A DNA stretch of 64,000 bases from Rhodocyclales bacterium (GTDB taxonomy: Bacteria > Pseudomonadota > Gammaproteobacteria > Burkholderiales > Rhodocyclaceae). Under the pieces are notes generated by a model. The model was given only the letters and a program-made list of their open reading frames with translations. It searched no databases and was not told where the DNA came from. Shown here one piece after another: positions 34,139-49,453 of the stretch. The stretch is taken from NCBI GenBank assembly GCA_016235025.1, contig JACRMV010000004.1, positions 310,001 to 374,000 of the forward strand, in the 5' to 3' direction. The stretch's first letter is position 1, and every line of letters starts with the position of its first letter. The translations under genes were made by a program, and so were the position numbers.

Positions 34139-35077
34139 TCAATCACGCAACTCGCGCCCGGTGAGCTTGAGGAACACGTCTTCCAGATTTGCCGGCCGGT
34201 GCAATGTCCGCAGCGCTGGCTGCCCGGCCAGATGATCCAGCAAGGGAGCCGCCGCATCGACGTAGCAGAATGCCGTTTCGCCGCTGACTTCGACGCGATG
34301 TGAAAAGCGTCCGCCCTCGCGTGCCGCCCAGCCCGGTGCATCCTCCCCGTAAACTTCCACCACTTCGGCTTCGATATGCGCGCGAATCAGCTCGCGCGGC
34401 GCTCCTTCGCAGACCGTGCGGCCATTGTCGATGATCGCCAGACGCTGGCACAGGCGCTCCGCCTCGTCCATGAAATGCGTCGTCAGCAGGATCGTCTTGC
34501 CCTGCGTCAGCAATTGCTTCAGGCGTTCCCAGATCAGATGCCGCGCCTGCGGATCGAGGCCGGTGGTCGGCTCGTCGAGGATCAGCAGTTCCGGATCGTT
34601 GACCAGCGCGCGGGCCAGCGTCAGCCGCCGCTTCATGCCGCCGGAGAGGACGCGGATGCTTGTCTGCTCCTTGCCCGCCAGCCCGGCGAAATCGAGCAGG
34701 GCGGGAATCTTCGGCTTCAGCACGGCGTCGCGAATACCAAAGTAACGGCCATACACCAGCAGGTTTTCGGCCACGGTGAAATCAGGGTCGAGGTTGTCGA
34801 ACTGCGGCACCACGCCGACGTTCATGCGCGCCTCGCGTGCATGCTCAGGGGCCGGCAGGCCGGCCAGCATGACCTCGCCGGCATCGGGCGTGGTGAGCCC
34901 GAGGCAGCAGCGCAACGTGGTGGTCTTGCCGGCGCCGTTGGGACCGAGCAGGCCGTAGCATTCGCCGCGCCGCAAGCTGAAATTCAGGCCGGCGACGACT
35001 TCCCGACCGTCATAGGACTTGTGCAGGTTGCGAACGACCAGCGGCGAACCCAGTGGCAAACCCGGCGGGGCGTTCAC
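34139..35077 (-). CDS. ABC transporter ATP-binding protein (NodI-like)
   Basis: Energises the adjacent permease. 312 residues, start GTG 35077 overlapping the hydrolase stop. Walker [11 protein letters not shown], signature [34 protein letters not shown] including Walker B, switch His in [15 protein letters not shown]. The C-terminal about 90 residues form the NodI-type extension. Confidence 0.93.
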
Positions 35078-35718
35078 TGCGGCCAGGCGCGCTGCACGAT
35101 ATCGCGCAGAATGTGCAGCTTGCGATGGAAAAAGTGGTCGGCGCCGGGCACCACCACCACCGGCTGTTCCAGCGGCTCGGCCCAGGCGAGGACGTTCTCC
35201 AACGGCACGGTGGTGTCGCTGGAGCCGTGGATCACCAGCGTGCCGGGCGCCACGGCGGCAGTTTCGTAGGTGCGGGCGCCCTCGACGTAGCCCGCCGCGG
35301 TGCCGACCAGCACCAGCCAGCGCACCGGGTGTCCGGTGGCGGCAAGGCGCTGTGCCATCCGTGTGACGACGTAGGCGCCGAAGGAAAACCCGGCCAGGTA
35401 GATTGGCAGCTGTCCGTCCGGGTCATGCCGCGCCTGCGCCCAGGCGAGCACGGCGAGCAGGTCATCGGTTTCGCCTGCACCCTGGTCATGTTCGCCCTCG
35501 GTCGCGCCGACGCCGCGAAAGCCGGGGCGCAAAACGATGCAAGCTTTCTCGCGCAGGGCGCGCGCCAGTGTGGTGACGACTTTGTTATCCGGCGTGCCGC
35601 CGAACAGCGGATGCGGGTGGCCGATCAGTGCAATGCCGGTTGGCTGCGCCGGCAGGTCGATGAAAATCTCGATCGCGCCTTCCGGCCCGTCGATGATGGC
35701 ATGTTGGTGCCGGATCAT
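35074..35718 (-). CDS. Alpha/beta hydrolase (dienelactone-hydrolase-like)
   Basis: 214 residues: [45 protein letters not shown], nucleophile elbow GFSFGAY, Asp in HGSSDTTVP and His in [11 protein letters not shown] complete a catalytic triad. Substrate unknown. Overlaps the ferredoxin gene upstream and the ABC ATPase gene downstream by four bases each. Confidence 0.88.
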
Positions 35719-36029
35719 GGGTCGACCTTGAGCCGGCCGACCACGCGGCCGTGCAGCAGATGTTCGTCGATGATTTCGTCAATGTCTTCCGTGTCGACGT
35801 AGGTGTACCAGGTGGCTTCCGGGTAAATCACCAGCACCGGCCCCTGGTCGCAGCGGTCGAGGCAGCCGGCCTTGTTGATCCGCACCCGCCCCGGTGCTTG
35901 CTCGCCCAGCGCTTTGACGCGTTCCTTGGCATAGGCCCACAGCTCGCTCGCGCCGTGATCGTTGCAGCACGCTTCGCCCGCCGCGCGCTGGTTGGTACAG
36001 AAGAAAACGTGGTGCTTGAAATGGCTCAT
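35715..36029 (-). CDS. Thioredoxin-like [2Fe-2S] ferredoxin
   Basis: 104 residues: HHVFFCTNQRAAGEACCNDHGA, then INKAGCLDRCDQGPVLVIYPEATWYTYVD. The cysteine arrangement fits the 2Fe-2S thioredoxin-fold family (NuoE-like). First gene of the eight-gene minus-strand run; redox partner unknown. Confidence 0.9.
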   Translation of the reverse strand: MSHFKHHVFFCTNQRAAGEACCNDHGASELWAYAKERVKALGEQAPGRVRINKAGCLDRCDQGPVLVIYPEATWYTYVDTEDIDEIIDEHLLHGRVVGRLKVDP

Positions 36030-36064: not shown

Positions 36065-36748
36065 TCAGCCCGCCTTTGCCAGCTTTGCCAGCGCCGCCCG
36101 TCCGGACAGCAGATGATCGTGCATGCGCCGGCCGGCGAGATTGGCGTCACGCGCCAGCAGCGCGGCGAGAATTGCGCGATGCTCCAGCAGCGATTGCGCG
36201 ACGCGGCCTTCGAGCCGCAGCGAATCGCGCCGTGTCAGCTTGATCACCTGCCGCGTATCGTCGAGCAACTGGGTGAGATAGCGGTTGCCAGCGATCTGTT
36301 GCAAGGCGGCATGAAAACGCTGGTTGGCCTCGAAGAAGCGATCCGCATCGTTAGCGGCGGCGTGCTGCTCAAGCTCTGCATGCAGCGCTTCGAGACGCGA
36401 AAAGTCGGCGCTGGTGGCACGCCGCGCCGCCTCGGCCGCGGCCTGCCCCTCAAGCAGCGCCATCACCTGAAAGACATCGTCGATGTCCTGCTCGGAAAGC
36501 TCGGTCACATAACAGCCGCGACGCGGCTTCAGCACCACCAGCCCCTCGGCCGCCAGCACTTTCAGCGCTTCGCGCAGGGGCGTGCGGCTGATACCATACT
36601 CCAGTGCCAGCGCCTGCTCGTCAATCCAGCTTCCCGGCGCCAGATCATGGGCGAAAATGCGCTCCCGCAGGCGCTCGGCGACCTGCTCGTAAAGGGCAAG
36701 CGCATTGAGGCTTTGAATTGGAGGCGGGGCGGGCTGTCTTGCATCCAT
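36065..36748 (-). CDS. GntR-family (FCD type) transcriptional regulator
   Basis: 227 residues: N-terminal winged helix (LYEQVAERLRERIFAHDLAPGSWIDEQALALEYGISRTPLREALKVLAAEGLVVLKPRRGCYV), then an all-helical FCD ligand domain (DIDDVFQVMALLEGQAAAEAA; FHAALQQIAGNRYLTQLL; HRAILAALLARDANLAGRRMHDHL), whose His/Asp positions suggest a metal-plus-carboxylate ligand site. Start ATG 36748 lies inside a perfect palindrome and only about 10-15 bases after the predicted transcription start, so the mRNA may be nearly leaderless. Divergent from the methylmalonyl-CoA genes, its likely target. A dispersed-element copy encodes ATSADFS near residues 111-117. Confidence 0.88.
   Translation of the reverse strand: MDARQPAPPPIQSLNALALYEQVAERLRERIFAHDLAPGSWIDEQALALEYGISRTPLREALKVLAAEGLVVLKPRRGCYVTELSEQDIDDVFQVMALLEGQAAAEAARRATSADFSRLEALHAELEQHAAANDADRFFEANQRFHAALQQIAGNRYLTQLLDDTRQVIKLTRRDSLRLEGRVAQSLLEHRAILAALLARDANLAGRRMHDHLLSGRAALAKLAKAG
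36400..36424 (+). repeat. Dispersed 25-bp element, copy 11 (in GntR gene)
   Basis: AAAAGTCGGCGCTGG followed by TGGCACGCCG; antisense to its host gene, read there as ATSADFS. Confidence 0.8.
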
Positions 36749-36789
36749 AATTATGGATGCAGTATTATATTGAGTCTTCAGGATGTCAA
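36739..36789. promoter_or_regulatory. Divergent promoter with perfect 20-bp palindrome (GntR operator candidate)
   Basis: GCATCCATAA (36741-36750) and TTATGGATGC (36751-36760) form an exact palindrome that includes the regulator ATG. On the minus strand TTGACA (36789-36784) and TATAAT (36769-36764, 14-base spacing; or AATACT with 17) form a regulator promoter whose start site would fall in the palindrome. On the plus strand TTGCAT (36739-36744) and TATTAT (36763-36768) with 18 bases between could serve the mutase operon, with the palindrome between -35 and -10. Confidence 0.75.
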
Positions 36790-36869: not shown

Positions 36870-39059
<2,190 letters not shown>

Positions 39060-39065
39060 TCCCCG

Positions 39066-40049
39066 GTGCACGCTACGTCCGCCATCGACTACCGGATGCT
39101 CGCCCGCGAGTTGCGGGGCGGCAATCGCCGTGCACTGGCGAAGGCCATCACGCTGGTCGAATCCACTCTGGCGGAACATCATGTGCTGGCGCAGGAAGTC
39201 TTGGCCGAGGTATTGCCGCATACCGGAAATACCATCCGGATCGGCATCTCCGGCGTGCCGGGTGTCGGCAAGTCGACCTTCATCGAGGCGCTGGGGCTGT
39301 TTCTCATTGCCCGTGGCCACCGTCTGGCGGTGCTGGCGGTCGACCCCTCGTCCTCAGTTTCTGGCGGCTCCATCCTCGGCGACAAGACCCGGATGGAATT
39401 GCTGTGCCGCAAGGAAGACGCCTTCATCCGGCCATCGCCGGCGGCGGGCAGCCTGGGCGGCGTGGCGGAAAAAACCCGTGAGGCCATGCTGCTGTGCGAG
39501 GCGGCCGGCTTCGACGTCATCATCGTCGAGACCGTCGGTGTCGGCCAGTCGGAAATCGCCGTGGCCGGGATGACCGACGTTTTCGTCTTGCTGCAACTGC
39601 CTAATGCCGGCGACGACTTGCAGGCGATCAAGAAAGGCATCGTCGAGCTGGCCGACCTGATCGTCTTCAACAAGGCTGACATCGATCCGGTGGCGGCGCA
39701 GGCCGCCGTCAGCCAGATGCGTTCGGCACTGACCATGCTGCGTCCGACATCGCCCCATTGGCAGCCGCCAGTGCTGACGCTCTCGGCCATAAAAAAGGAA
39801 GGTCTCGCCGAATTCTGGCAGACCGTCGAAAAATTCCGCGACGTCATGACTGCCACCGGAGAACTGGAAGCACGGCGCAAACGGCAGGCCAGCGACTGGA
39901 TGTGGCAACAGATCGACGCGGCCCTGCGTCAGCGCTTTCGCGCCCATCCATCCATCCGGGCCGCACTGCCGGAAATCACCCGTGCCGTGGCGGCCGGCAC
40001 CCTGCCGTCGTCACTGGCCGCCCGGCAACTGCTGGCTCTTTTTACATAA
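39066..40049 (+). CDS. meaB: Methylmalonyl-CoA mutase-associated GTPase MeaB
   Basis: G3E-type GTPase that protects and reloads the B12 mutase. 327 residues from GTG 39066: P-loop [37 protein letters not shown] (switch), VFNKADID (guanine specificity NKxD), and a C-terminal dimer arm. The Shine-Dalgarno is poor, consistent with coupling to mcmA. Confidence 0.94.
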
Positions 40050-40075: not shown

Positions 40076-41608
40076 ATGCATGACATCATTCATCAACTAG
40101 ACGCCAAGCGTGAGCGAGCTGCGCTTGGCGGCGGGCAAAAACGCATCGACTCACAGCATGGCAAAGGCAAGCTGACGGCGCGCGAGCGCATCGAGATGCT
40201 GCTCGACGAGGGCACCTTCGAAGAATGGGACATGTTCAAGGAGCATCGCTGCGTCGATTTCGACATGGCTGACAACCATGTCCCTGGCGATGGTGTGGTG
40301 ACCGGATACGGCACAATCAACGGCCGCATGGTGTTCATTTTTTCGCAGGACTTCACCGTCTTCGGCGGCGCCCTGTCGGAAGCACATGCCGAGAAAATCT
40401 GCAAGATCATGGACAAGGCCATGCAGGTCGGCGCCCCGGTGATCGGCCTCAACGACTCGGGTGGCGCGCGCATCCAGGAGGGCGTGGCCGCGCTGGGTGG
40501 CTATGCCGAAGTATTCCAGCGTAATGTGATGGCATCCGGCGTGATCCCGCAAATCTCGATGATCATGGGGCCGTGCGCCGGCGGCGCCGTCTATAGCCCG
40601 GCCATGACCGACTTCATTTTCATGGTCAAGGATTCATCCTACATGTTTGTCACCGGTCCGGAAGTGGTGAAAACCGTGACCCACGAGGAAGTCACAGCGG
40701 AAGAACTTGGCGGCGCGGTAACGCACACCTCCAAGTCCGGAGTGGCCGACCTGTCGTTCGAGAACGACGTCGATGCGCTGCTGATGCTGCGCCGCTTCTT
40801 CAATTACCTGCCGCTCAATAACCGGGAAAAACCGCCGATCCGGCAGACCGACGATCCAGCCGACCGGCTCGACTATTCACTCGACACACTGGTGCCGGAC
40901 AATACCAGCAAATCCTACGACATCAAGGAGCTGATCCTGAAGATGGTCGATGACACCGATTTCTTCGAGATCCAGCCCGATCATGCCAAAAACATCATCA
41001 TCGGTTTCGCCCGCATGGAAGGCCAGACCGTGGGTATTGTCGCCAACCAGCCAATGGTGCTGGCCGGCTGTCTGGACATCAAGTCCTCGATCAAGGCCGC
41101 ACGCTTCGTGCGCTTTTGCGATGCCTTCAGCATTCCGATCATCACCCTGGTCGACGTTCCCGGCTTCATGCCCGGCACGGCGCAGGAATATGGCGGTATC
41201 ATCAAGCATGGCGCCAAGTTGCTTTACGCCTATGCCGAATGCACTGTGCCGAAGATCACCCTGATCACCCGCAAGGCTTACGGCGGGGCCTATGATGTTA
41301 TGGCCTCGAAGCATCTGCGCGGCGACGTCAATTTCGCCTGGCCCTCGGCGGAGATTGCCGTGATGGGGCCGAAGGGTGCAGTGGAGATCATCTTCCGGGA
41401 AGAAAAGAACGATCCGATCAAGGTGGCGAAACGCGAGGCCGAATACAAGGCCAAGTTCGCCAACCCGTTTGTCGCCGGCGCACGCGGTTTCATTGACGAT
41501 GTGATCATGCCGCACGAAACCCGCAAGCGCATCTGCCGCAGCCTGGCGATGCTGAAGAACAAGAAAATCGAGAACCCGTGGCGCAAGCACGGCAACATTC
41601 CTCTTTAA
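40076..41608 (+). CDS. pccB: Propionyl-CoA carboxylase beta chain
   Basis: Carboxyltransferase that moves CO2 from carboxybiotin to propionyl-CoA. 510 residues from ATG 40076, preceded by GGGGGAGA. Motifs: [88 protein letters not shown] and the oxyanion region [15 protein letters not shown]. The in-frame region upstream belongs to meaB in another frame. Ten bases before pccA. Confidence 0.95.
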
Positions 41609-41618
41609 GGTATCCACC

Positions 41619-43613
<1,995 letters not shown>

Positions 43614-43766: not shown

Positions 43767-44236
<470 letters not shown>

Positions 44237-44240
<4 letters not shown>

Positions 44241-47200
44241 ATTTTTCCTTGTTTATGCTTGATGGATTCCGCAATGCGAGCAAGCAGTTCGTCTTCGTCG
44301 TAGGGCTTGCCGAGGTAGTGATTGACGCCGAGTTCCATGGCATGGCTGCGGTGTTTTTCGGCCGTGCGCGAAGTAATCATGACGATGGGAACGTGCCGCA
44401 GACGTTCGTCGGCGCGCACATGCCGCGTCAGGTCGAAACCGTCCATGCGCGGCATTTCGATATCGACCAGCATTACGTCCGGCAGCTCCTCGGCCAGTTG
44501 CTCCAGCGCATCGACACCGTCCTTGGCAGTCAACACCCGGTAACCCTGCCGCATCAGCAGACGACCAGTAATCTTGCGCACGGTGAGGGAGTCATCCACC
44601 ACCATGACGGTAGCGATGGCGGCAGCGGCTTCATCTGGCGCGGCGGGGATCGGCATCACTGCCGTTGCTGTCATGGCGGTCGTTGCCGACAAGCTGCGTT
44701 CGGCGGCATGAGCCAGCAGGGCGACCGGGTTGACGATGAAGACGATTTCGCCGTCGGCCAGCACCGTGGCGCCGATCAGGCCCGGCACCCGTGCCAGTTG
44801 CGGGCCAATAGGCTTGACCACGATTTCCTGATTACCGGAAAGGCCATCGACTTCCAGTGCCACGACACCGGTACCGCCCCGTATCTGCAGCACCCAAGTG
44901 CGTCGTGCCGGCGGTGGCGGCGGTGCATCATCACCAAGCAGTTGTGGCAGATATTGCCAGGGGTAATGCGTTCCCTGCCAGTCCAGCCCCCCCATCGCAC
45001 GCACGGTGGCAATGGCATCAGCCTTGAGTTCGCTGGCCTGCTCTACCATGGCTGAAGGAATGGCGAACTGGCGATGTCCCACCCGCACCAGCAGCGCTTG
45101 TGTCACGGCCAGAGTCAGGGGTAGCGTCAGACGAAAGGTGGTGCCTGCTCCGGGCGCCGAGAGGATGTCGATGCGCCCACCCAGGGCGGTGGTTTCGTTT
45201 TTCACCACGTCCATGCCGACGCCACGTCCGGCCAGCGCTGTTACCTCGTCCGCCGTGGAAAAGCCGGGCTGGAAGATCAGTTGCGTCAGTGCGGCCTCCG
45301 TCGCGGCGGAGGCCATATCGCGCGGTAGCAGACCACGTTCGACGGCACGCTGGCGAATCTTGGAAAAATCAAGGCCGGCGCCGTCATCGGTAATGCTGAT
45401 GACAATTTCATTGCCTTCCTGTGCCAGCGACAGGGTGATCTGGCCAATCGCCGGCTTGCCGGCGGCACGGCGGCGCGGCGCCTCCTCGATGCCGTGCGCC
45501 ACGCTGTTGCGCAGCAGGTGTTCGAGCGGCCCGGCCATCTTTTCCAGTACCGAACGGTCCATTTCGAGCTGACCATGGCGAAGGTCCAGGTTGACCCGCT
45601 TGCCGACCTCCTTCGCCGCCTGCCGCACCACCCGGTACAGACGTTCGGCGAGGCTGTCAAAAGGCACCATGCGCGCGCTCATCAGTCGCTGCGACAAGTC
45701 GCGGTTGAGGCGCGCCTGGGCCGCAAGCGCGGCATTGGCATGATCGAGATTGAGCAGCAGGTTATGCTGGACGGTATCGACGTCGCTGACGCTCTCGGCC
45801 ATCATCCGGGTCACTTCCTGGAAGCGGGTGAACCGGTCAAACTCGAGCGGATCGAACACCTGCCCCTGCTCGATGGCGAGTGCCTGACGCGACTGCATCT
45901 GCAACTCTGCCTGGATTTCAACCTCGCGCAACTGACTGCGCAACCGCAGCACGTTCTCCGTCAGGTCGAGCAACGAGGCCTTGATTTCACGCATCTCGCC
46001 TTCGATGCGGGCGCGGGCAATCGCAATTTCACCCGCCTCGTTAACCCACTGATCGACCTGCGCGGCACGTACCCGCAACTGCGCCTGGGTAGCGTCAGAC
46101 ACTCGTCCGTGGTCGGCCGGTCCTGCCAGCCTGATCGCAGCCGCACCAGCCAGAGGCTGGGGCGGCGCGGTGGCGACAGTCGTCGTGACCGTCTCGGCTT
46201 GCGGGTGACGCAAGCGTTCGATCAGCCCTGCAGCGCGGTCATAAGATGCCTCCAGGGAGTCGATCACTGTCGATGCCCCCGTCCTCCCTGCCGCGACATC
46301 TTCGATCCGGGTTTCCATCGCATGCAGCAGCTCGCCGCAAGCCATGGCGCCGGCCATGCGTGCACTGCCTTTCAGCGTGTGCAGTGCGCGCGTCAGCGCC
46401 TGGAGAGGATCGCTCTCCTCAGGCGCGTCACGCCAGGCCCGCAACAACTCGCCGATGCTGTTCATCAACTCGACACTTTCGTCGAGGAACAAGGGCAATA
46501 ACTGGGCATCGATTTCATCTTCGATCCGCAGCGCCCGACGCTCCACCTCGGGAGCAACGGTTTCCGGCATGGCCTCGGCCACTGCCTTGTCAGGGATTTC
46601 GGCCGGGATTTCACTCGGGGTTTCCTGCACTGTTGCCGATGCAGTTTCTTCCTGCACCCCGGCCGGCGTCGCCTCCGGGGTCTCGGTCGGTATTTCAGGT
46701 GCCACCTCGATCGGGGCCGGCGACATGGCGGCAAGTGCGCCAGCAAGCTTGGCTTCTTCACCTGGCATACGACGCTCGGCGATGGCGCCCAGCATGCCTT
46801 CCAGCGCACCGGCACAACGGGCAAAGATGAAACGCTGGTCGTCATCCGGCACCATCTCGAGTTGGGCGAACCGCAGCAGCGCAGCCTCCAGTGCATGCGC
46901 CAGATGATGGACCGGCAGAAACCCGGTCGCCGCAGAAATGCTGGCCATGGTATGCGCAGCGCGAATCACTTCGTCACCGGGTACGCCTTCGTGACCGAGC
47001 TGCGCCTGCAATACGGCGACATGGCCACGGGTTTCCTCCAGATACATGCCATAGAGCGCAGGCGCCACCTCAACCTCGCCCACCCGTACTGGCGCCGGTT
47101 CAGGGAAATCGAATACCTCGGCGGAAACCACAGGCACACCGGCCTGCGCTGCTGCCACGTCCGCTGTTGCGGTTGGCTCGGGTACGGGCGGTTCGACAAA

Positions 47201-49453
47201 AGTCGGCGCTGGCGGAACGGCGGGTTCTGCGGCAACGGCTTCGCCACGCAGTGCCGCACACTGCCGCGACAGCTCACCGGCCTCAAGATGACTGCCGCCA
47301 CCCTGCTCGAGTTGCTGCACCCAGGTGCGGAAAACCTCTGCCGCCCTATCCAGCATGGCGAGCAATCCGGCAGTGCCATCGCGGGCTTCGTCAAGCCAGC
47401 GGTTCAGCACCTGCTCGACATCCCATGCCACCTCACCCAGTTCGGCAAGGCCCACCATGCGGCCGCTGCCTTTCAGGGTGTGGAAGCTGCGGCGCAGCAC
47501 CGCCAGGATGGCCTGATCGTGTGGCGCGCTGTGCGCTTGCGGCAGATGTTCGTCGATGGTGGCGAGTACTTCGTGCGCTTCCTCGATGAAAATTCCGAGC
47601 AATTCGGCGTCAAGTTCATCGGCGCTGGCTTCAACCAGGCGCGCGGCTTCAGCGGACGGCGGAGGTGTCTCGGGCGGCGCCAGAACATCCGGCGTCGGTT
47701 CGGCCGGCAGTTCAAGACCGCTCTCGGCGTATCGCTCGGCGCCTTCGGGGGACACTGGCGAGGCAGCGACCTCGGCTTCAGCCACCATCTCAAGCGCGGG
47801 GGACGGAGTTGGCGGGGCAAGGATGGCATCGATATCGGCGGGGCCGAGTTGCAGTTTCGCGACAAAGAAACCAATCGCAGCCAGCTTCTCGGCGACAGCC
47901 TCGAATTCACCCGGTTGCGGGACATGGCCCGGCTCGGTAAAGCGCTGAATCGCCACGCCGCATTCGGCCAGCAAACTGGCCGCCCGGTCTTCACCGAGCA
48001 CCGCCAGTGCGCCCTCGACCTGACGGATCGGTTGTTGCAGTGCCGGCAGTGTCGGCTTGCGTGAGGGATCGCGAAAGAAGGCATCCAGCGTCTGCTCGAT
48101 GACACCCAGATTGGTGCGTATTTCGCGTACCACCGATTCCATTAGCAGGCGTTCCTGCGCCCGCCGTGACATGGCATCGAGACGAGGAAGCTCGAGGACA
48201 GCGAGCGCATCACCACGCGTCAAGGCGTCGAGACGCCCGGCAACGATATCCACCAGCTCGGTGAAGTCCTTGCCCAGCGTGGCAAAATTATCCAGCGCGG
48301 TTTCCGCCAGCAGCAACGCTGTCGCCATCTCCAGCGCCAGGATATCGCTGTGACGCGTTGGGTCGCGACGCAACAGATCGGCCTGCTGGCGAATGGCGTC
48401 GATCAGGCGCCGGTAGCTTGGCTGATCAGCCGCTGCGGCCTCTTCGCCCATTTTTATGACCCGCTCGTGGAACGGCGGCAAGGCGGCGACTGTCCCAGCC
48501 GACAGGCGATTCCAGTCGTCCTTGGCGGCCGCAAGCAATTCCCGCAGGCGACGAATATGCGGTTCCCGACCTTGCGACGGCATAAGGTCGGGTATCGAGC
48601 CATCGAGCCGGTACGCAGCGCGCACCACAGCCAATGCGGCGTGGCCGTGGGTGGCAGTGGCTGCAAGGTATAGGGCCTCGCGCAGCAAGGCATCGGACGT
48701 TACCTCGGTACCCTCGATCAGTTTTTTGATCCGGGCCGCCAGGCGCAAAAGAAACCTCTTGGCCTCGTCGGCGTCGGGCAAACCCTCCGCCCCCAGTGCA
48801 TCGAGTACGCCCAGCGCAACCCACCACAACGCGCGGGCGCCCGGCGCCTGGCGCGTCGTCTCGATCATGGTGAGCGAGGCCTTCATCTCGCTGACCCCTT
48901 TGACATCGCCCTTGATCCACTTCACCAGGCCGCGTTCGAAACCCAAGCGCGCTGCCTTGAGGCGCGCCAGCAGTGCCTCGGGTAGCATCGGCGTCAACTC
49001 CCGCTCGCGTTTGGGCGGGCGCTGGGTCAGGTCGGGAAAGAAAAATTCGGCCGGGCCCGGAGCCGGCAAGCCCCGCGCCAGGATCAAACTGCGATAGGCC
49101 GGAAAAAGTTTCAGCGGCTGGTGCGCGCCGCCAGCCATCAAATCGTCCAGATAAGTCCGCAGGGCGCCCAGTCCATCTTCTATCACATGAATGAGCGCCG
49201 CCCGTTCCGCTACCGAGGCCTCGTCCAGTGTCGCCAGTGCCGTCTCGATCGCCTGAGAAAATTCAATGACGCCTTCGAGCCCCACCACGACCAGAGCGCC
49301 ATGCGCCTGATGCAGGCTGGCACGCGCCTGTTTCAGTATTGCATTGTCCGGATTACCCGCATAAGCAGCCAGTTCACTGGCAACACGTTCCAGGGAAAGG
49401 TCAATTTCACCTTTAACCCAGGACAGCGGGCCAATATCGAGATCAATAGCCAT
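44237..49453 (-). CDS. chpA: ChpA-type hybrid chemotaxis kinase (Hpt domains, CheA core, CheW, receiver)
   Basis: Core kinase of the Pil-Chp system that controls type IV pili/twitching. 1738 residues. An N-terminal degenerate Hpt-like region precedes HPt sites [10 protein letters not shown] (H658) and [10 protein letters not shown] (H1025). A third module ([13 protein letters not shown]834) has the His but not the Lys-Gly motif. Then follow the CheA dimer/ATPase region ([46 protein letters not shown]), a CheW-like domain, and a C-terminal receiver ([13 protein letters not shown]1664 in [11 protein letters not shown]). A dispersed-element copy encodes PPAPTFVEP in the Pro-rich linker near 750. 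Confidence 0.93.
47198..47222 (+). repeat. Dispersed 25-bp element, copy 13 (in chpA)
   Basis: AAAAGTCGGCGCTGG followed by CGGAACGGCG; antisense to chpA, in the APTF frame of an inter-domain linker. Confidence 0.85.

Follow-up and report, generated by a model that had tools for sequence, protein, structure and literature searches.

A perfect palindrome between a regulator gene and the divergent mcm-meaB-pccBA genes of a Rhodocyclales bacterium is very probably the operator through which this GntR/FCD regulator represses both its own gene and mcm-meaB-pccBA, with wider control in related bacteria. We examined this site in a stretch of 64,000 nucleotides (the window) and compared it with related genomes. 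The initial annotation had proposed that a single operator serves an autoregulating GntR regulator together with mcm-meaB-pccBA. This proposal is strongly supported by the conservation of the site, by its co-occurrence with the regulator and by 25 of 28 additional sites that precede genes of the same pathway, and we infer autorepression.

The regulator gene (36065..36748, minus strand) codes for 227 amino acids with a GntR winged helix-turn-helix (HTH) domain (Pfam GntR, 1.2e-19, 70.1 bits, cut-off 27) followed by an FCD domain (1.7e-28, 100 bits, cut-off 24.3). Its ATG start codon (36746..36748, minus strand) lies inside the palindrome, as had been annotated. Other in-frame ATG, GTG or TTG codons upstream of this ATG occur only at 41 and 43 codons, and in 53 of 110 compared loci the equivalent codon is the sole in-frame start before the matched domain. 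On the plus strand follow mcm, encoding a methylmalonyl-CoA mutase of 729 amino acids (36870..39059; NCBIfam NF006944 above cut-off, Pfam MM_CoA_mutase and B12-binding), and meaB, encoding the mutase-associated GTPase (39066..40049; domain model matches). The mcm gene probably starts at 36870 rather than at the mechanical ORF start at 36783. The next two genes are pccB for the beta subunit (carboxyl transferase) of propionyl-CoA carboxylase (40076..41608; Pfam Carboxyl_trans, 2.5e-202), where the specificity for propionyl-CoA is assigned from the neighbouring genes, and pccA for the alpha subunit (biotin carboxylase, PCC_BT; 41619..43613; domain matches). The operator centre precedes the regulator start codon by 2 nt, and some 120 bp separate it from the mcm start. 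A glyoxalase-type gene (Pfam Glyoxalase_4; 43767..44240, minus strand) codes for a putative methylmalonyl-CoA epimerase. We also noted that the regulator gene is followed on the same strand by genes for a 2Fe-2S ferredoxin-like protein and an alpha/beta hydrolase (35074-36029), a pair that is matched in two of the compared loci (L007 and L036) and not in the others. Furthermore, the glyoxalase-type gene shares its first 4 nt with the end of a large gene for a chemotaxis-type hybrid kinase (44237-49453, minus strand; three Hpt, HATPase_c, CheW and receiver domains).

The palindrome had been described as exact and 20 bp long. The exactness was confirmed by direct matching, and the symmetry extends one base further on each side to give a 22-bp palindrome, TGCATCCATAATTATGGATGCA, with the arms TGCATCCATAA and TTATGGATGCA (36740..36761, no strand). 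This is the longest gapless perfect palindrome in the window (the runner-up measures 16 bp) and the only place in the window where the sequence occurs with up to three mismatches. Its G+C content is 36% versus 63% for the window. However, 10 of 200 dinucleotide-preserving shuffles of the window contained a perfect palindrome that was 22 bp or longer. The symmetry by itself therefore carries little weight, and we ruled out palindrome length as sufficient proof of function.

For a comparison of orthologous loci we assembled 110 regulator loci: a search of 150 family genomes contributed 30, and contigs of named genomes contributed the best 80 of 136, with some organisms represented in both sets. 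The mcm gene is divergent from the regulator gene in 107 of these loci; for the three exceptions (L041, L070, L101), mcm was not matched in the stored DNA. The core ATAATTATG occurs within 330 nt upstream of the matched regulator start in 76 of the 110 loci. The ATG of the operator is the sole in-frame start in 53 of these 76; a further 10 have it in frame but also offer later possible starts, and in 13 it is out of frame, which means that the site is kept in the latter loci where it is non-coding. Across 54 loci that are less than 80% alike, the information content is high between positions -18 and +13 relative to the centre and mostly below 0.3 bits outside this footprint, with small rises where a TTGAC motif sits. 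Since these loci were chosen on ATAATTATG, the middle 9 bp are fixed by construction and the remainder is not.

Read on the mcm strand, the footprint consists of TTG[CT]AT, 18 bp and TAT[TC]AT, and the operator lies between and over these hexamers. The corresponding elements of the window are TTGCAT (36739..36744, plus strand), a putative mcm -35 element that overlaps the outer operator arm, and TATTAT (36763..36768, plus strand), a putative -10 element at a spacing of 18 bp. These two elements flank the site, in agreement with the annotated position of the palindrome between mcm promoter elements. Judged by this consensus, the operator would occupy a typical position for a steric repressor. 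The exact symmetry itself appears less relevant than had been assumed: in 50 of 54 non-redundant loci an A replaces the G that completes the symmetry in the window, so that the exact 20 to 22 bp symmetry is incidental, contrary to the initial annotation. The putative binding site of the regulator is a 16-bp core, ATCCATAATTATGGAT (36743..36758, no strand), as indicated by the recurrence of ATNCATAATTATGNA and by a consensus that fades around it: the 25 pathway sites have ATTCATAATTATGAAT in common and little else outside it; this core is shared by construction, the missing TGC/GCA arms are not. The outer TGC/GCA of the window palindrome is therefore better read as promoter than as operator. 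By these comparisons the minimal operator is the 16-bp core ATNCATAATTATGNAT, with outer arms that overlap the putative mcm -35 element and abut the putative -10 element.

The sequence is silent on the sign of regulation, and an operator that adjoins its regulator gene and is conserved could also serve a regulator that activates mcm-meaB-pccBA or acts in both directions. We consider this explanation unlikely, since the site fills the interval between the -35 and -10 elements of mcm, which is the position of a repressor, and since in relatives it lies just 3' of a TAAAAT box in front of an epimerase-like gene (L151) and of two carbonic anhydrase genes (L206, L207). In addition, the nearest characterised relative in the literature that we found is a repressor according to PMC9765439. 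Repression of mcm-meaB-pccBA thus remains our preferred reading.

The distribution of the site links it to this regulator. With a match threshold of E up to 1e-30 the regulator was found in 118 of the 150 family genomes, including a few matches of only 35-40% identity. The motif TATNCATAATTATGNAT is present in 76 of the 150 genomes and the looser ATNCATAATTATGNA in 97, while the reversed control pattern gave 0 hits in every genome searched, in the family sample (150) as well as in an order sample (250). Of the 118 genomes in which the regulator is matched, 96 contain a site, versus one of the 32 without a match (Fisher p = 9.7e-17, with relatedness ignored); the single exception, G035, is an 82% complete genome. 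The 97 genomes contain 123 distinct ATNCATAATTATGNA sites, of which 95 adjoin the regulator, at no more than 245 bp from its match, whereas the other 28 are found elsewhere; G035 and G144 have no site adjoining the regulator. In the order sample, which includes some genomes of the family, ATNCATAATTATGNATNCA occurs in nine of 250 genomes, each time in the regulator-mcm divergon.

These numbers bear on the possibility that the palindrome is bound by another transcription factor and that the GntR regulator is a mere neighbour. Two observations point in this direction. First, the operator core ATNCATAATTATGNAT contains no GT..AC boxes, whereas PMC4494728 gives TKGT/ACMA boxes as the operator consensus of the FadR subfamily, with listed exceptions. 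Second, the core is missing in 34 of the 110 loci, 27 of which carry a different palindrome of the CATAATTCAAAATTGAATTATA type upstream of the regulator and seven of which carry neither. Yet a neighbour's site would hardly co-occur with the regulator in 96 of 118 genomes versus one of 32, nor adjoin it in 95 of 97 genomes, and we judge this possibility to be even smaller than that of an activator. The GntR regulator itself remains the preferred binding partner.

The alternative palindrome has the form CATAATTCAA-AA-TTGAATTATA and is found in L072, L074, L079 and 24 more loci, mostly from Sphaerotilaceae-like genera, with a nearly unchanged HTH in these 27 loci. Operator architecture thus seems to have changed in the CATAATTCAAAATTGAATTATA-type divergons without an obvious change of the recognition helix. 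We examined wing residues 73 and 79 as a possible cause and rejected them, because changes at these positions occur in many loci that keep the core and hence do not explain the second palindrome. Residues 32 and 35 separate the two palindrome groups more cleanly.

We then turned to the 28 sites located away from the regulator. Twenty-five of these lie 21-185 bp before genes of the propionyl-CoA route, as identified by tblastn of the neighbouring genes: 13 are associated with succinyl-CoA synthetase, either before a DUF2889 gene followed by sucC (10) or directly before sucC (3), six precede an epimerase-like gene (putative methylmalonyl-CoA epimerase) and six a carbonic anhydrase gene. Since these three target classes were named after the neighbours had been seen, the proportion of 25 in 28 is descriptive, although the classes were not used in finding the sites; several of the 28 sites come from one genus and are non-independent, and the neighbour families were confirmed by Pfam for a subset. 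Carbonic anhydrase provides bicarbonate, the co-substrate of propionyl-CoA carboxylase, and epimerase and succinyl-CoA synthetase flank the mutase step. The remaining three sites (in G140, G104 and G016) precede genes without a known link to the pathway. Those of G140 and G104 belong to similar loci of one genus, where a perfect copy of the core stands before the gene for a 192-aa HTH protein (L147, 4755-4771; L148, 4825-4841), and the one of G016 is found at the start of a histidine-phosphatase gene. The L148 copy contains a possible start codon of the 192-aa protein, which gave a weak match to a Crp-type HTH. The epimerase-like genes of G106, G104 and G053 seem to be preceded by degraded copies of the site.

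The arrangement of a DUF2889 gene before sucC under the operator recurs in ten genomes (L146, L198, L199, L210, L216-L221), and a functional link of DUF2889 to propionate or succinyl-CoA metabolism is possible. In two loci (L206, 1-2045; L207, 1-1989) the operator-borne carbonic anhydrase gene has a downstream neighbour in the same orientation that belongs to the acetyl-CoA hydrolase/CoA-transferase type, an assignment based on Pfam for L206 and on resemblance for L207.

The initial annotation had suggested a search for the palindrome before other propionate genes; this search succeeded in relatives and found no such site in the organism's own genome beyond the divergon. With up to three mismatches the 16-bp core occurs at five places in this genome, including the divergon, versus one place for the reversed control. 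The place with two mismatches (L153) falls inside an ORF, and the stored DNA around the four places outside the divergon (L002-L005) contains no match to the epimerase-like, sucC, carbonic anhydrase or DUF2889 proteins. Conversely, no site was found at the organism's own sucC, carbonic anhydrase and epimerase-like genes. The glyoxalase-type gene of the window is a homologue of genes that carry the operator in some relatives, and the best match upstream of it is 11/17, which is no operator. With pathway genes devoid of sites and the other places devoid of pathway matches, we rejected a regulon beyond the divergon for this genome, where control appears to be local.

The regulator promoter is less clear than that of mcm. 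Both elements named in the initial annotation are present on the minus strand, TTGACA at 36784..36789 and TATAAT at 36764..36769, the latter overlapping the putative mcm -10 element on the opposite strand. Their role as a promoter pair is doubtful because the spacer measures 14 bp, which is short for a usual sigma-70 promoter. In each of the 53 loci with an operator-embedded start, the TTGAC motif begins at -36 to -40 relative to the operator centre, and these positions would make the spacer to TATAAT 11-15 bp. TTGAC is thus a candidate regulator -35 element of conserved position with an uncertain -10 partner, and the conserved ATAAT fits better as the opposite-strand -10 element of mcm. Given the position of TTGAC and a usual spacer, the 5' end would lie about 10 nt or less from the ATG, and a near-leaderless regulator mRNA is therefore likely. 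Shine-Dalgarno matches are compatible with this: before the operator-embedded starts they reach 3 nt only (53 of 53, none longer), versus at least 4 nt for about one quarter of random 17-mers and for 75 of 91 mcm starts, a generous count because the best of several possible starts was taken. The earlier proposal of an almost leaderless message is consequently compatible with the data even if the promoter pair on which it was based is not convincing. When sole starts and those with later possible starts are pooled, a quick tree of 85 regulators requires three changes for the operator-embedded start, which concern a 42-row clade, a separate set of Polynucleobacter-like rows and a single Uliginosibacterium row. 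Gains and losses are indistinguishable on this tree.

A sole start codon inside an inverted repeat, as seen in 53 loci, also raises the idea that the palindrome acts in RNA, where it would form a stem at the beginning of the regulator message and hide the start codon. But a gapless palindrome leaves no loop, a C against A breaks the symmetry in most relatives, and a 5' end inside the palindrome, where we would place it, would remove part of the left arm. Because 13 loci keep the motif out of frame, and because it also recurs in front of carbonic anhydrase, sucC and epimerase-like genes, we set this idea aside as the least probable of the alternatives and retain a DNA operator as the preferred interpretation.

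An AlphaFold2 model of the regulator (28 orthologues) has a mean pLDDT of 90.1. Among solved structures, a Brucella GntR protein (7u5q) and Pseudomonas aeruginosa PmiR (7xp0/7xp1) come closest; we take PmiR to be the same protein as PrpR (PA0797). Residues N142, H146, H190 and H212 are invariant among 28 aligned sequences. FCD domains of the metal type contain an Asp or Asn and three His residues; the four invariant residues would fit this pattern, which would point to a carboxylate as effector. For the regulator, all 20 listed NCBIfam models stayed below their cut-offs, and an assignment to phnR_burk (TIGR03338) was rejected with 131.3 bits against a cut-off of 271.5. PccR (ScfR type), which controls propionyl-CoA carboxylase genes in Rhodobacter, belongs to another protein family.

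The closest known system is PrpR/PmiR, which shares the GntR and FCD domains and the fold (7xp0/7xp1; phmmer 3.1e-22 to 7xp0), at an identity of no more than 31-32%. According to PMC9765439, the GntR/FCD protein PrpR (PA0797) represses the methylcitrate prp operon, which serves a propionyl-CoA pathway, and binds upstream of its own gene. In contrast to the present case, PrpR governs the methylcitrate cycle, whereas the regulator described here adjoins mcm-meaB-pccBA of the methylmalonyl-CoA route. The PrpR site predicted in the same paper, ATTGTCGACAAT, is unlike the present operator: with up to two mismatches it is absent from the divergon, and its six matches in the window each have two mismatches. 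A GntR-family PrpR of Shewanella is likewise a predicted regulator of propionate use (PMC3223726). For regulators grouped under the name PrpR, PMC4494728 describes sites in which 2 nt separate GT from AC. In the same paper, BioR, a GntR regulator of biotin genes, provides a FadR-subfamily precedent for an A/T-rich palindrome (TTATMKATAA) that departs from the GT/AC consensus, with the difference that it serves another pathway and has another palindrome centre. PMC4494728 also states that single sites in divergons tend to lie near the middle of the spacer; contrary to this tendency, the operator here is off the middle.

From sequence comparison we infer the following scheme of binding, repression, promoters, effector and near-leaderless mRNA. 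A regulator dimer on the 16-bp core ATNCATAATTATGNAT would cover the interval between the mcm -35 and -10 elements together with the start region of its own gene, and would block RNA polymerase in both directions, which would result in repression of mcm-meaB-pccBA and in autorepression. A metabolite that rises with the production of propionyl-CoA would release the repressor; the best candidates are small carboxylates that would occupy the FCD pocket, such as methylmalonate, succinate or an acid resembling methylcitrate. Its control would extend in relatives to methylmalonyl-CoA epimerase, succinyl-CoA synthetase and carbonic anhydrase. Several findings weigh against this scheme: the 34 loci that lack the core, 27 of them with another palindrome despite a nearly identical HTH, the missing TKGT/ACMA boxes, the three further sites at genes with no known pathway link, and the absence of sites at this genome's own sucC, carbonic anhydrase and epimerase-like genes.

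We would describe this protein as a putative GntR/FCD repressor with a new operator and a new regulon, the kind of regulator being already known. Among the matches listed, the literature names no regulator of the methylmalonyl-CoA route for environmental betaproteobacteria. We found no description of this regulator or motif, and an earlier listing in the 2012 work on malonate/propionate regulation or in RegPrecise is possible. In a broader form, which we hold to be slightly more probable than its opposite, the entire propionyl-CoA to succinate route of Rhodocyclaceae-like bacteria would be under a single GntR/FCD repressor with an unusual A/T operator, bicarbonate supply by carbonic anhydrase and the exit through DUF2889/succinyl-CoA synthetase included. 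The operator-embedded start, which is present in two or more distinct branches of the family, would then yield a leaderless, self-limiting mRNA, and the extent of the regulon would vary by genus while the divergon stays. Since most genomes contain a single site, the system could provide a clean sensor part. For environmental betaproteobacteria, the analysis offers a specific operator and a coherent predicted regulon of the methylmalonyl-CoA route. The link to carbonic anhydrase and DUF2889-sucC would join bicarbonate supply and succinyl-CoA exit to propionate use, and the DUF2889-sucC link is in addition a clue to the function of DUF2889.
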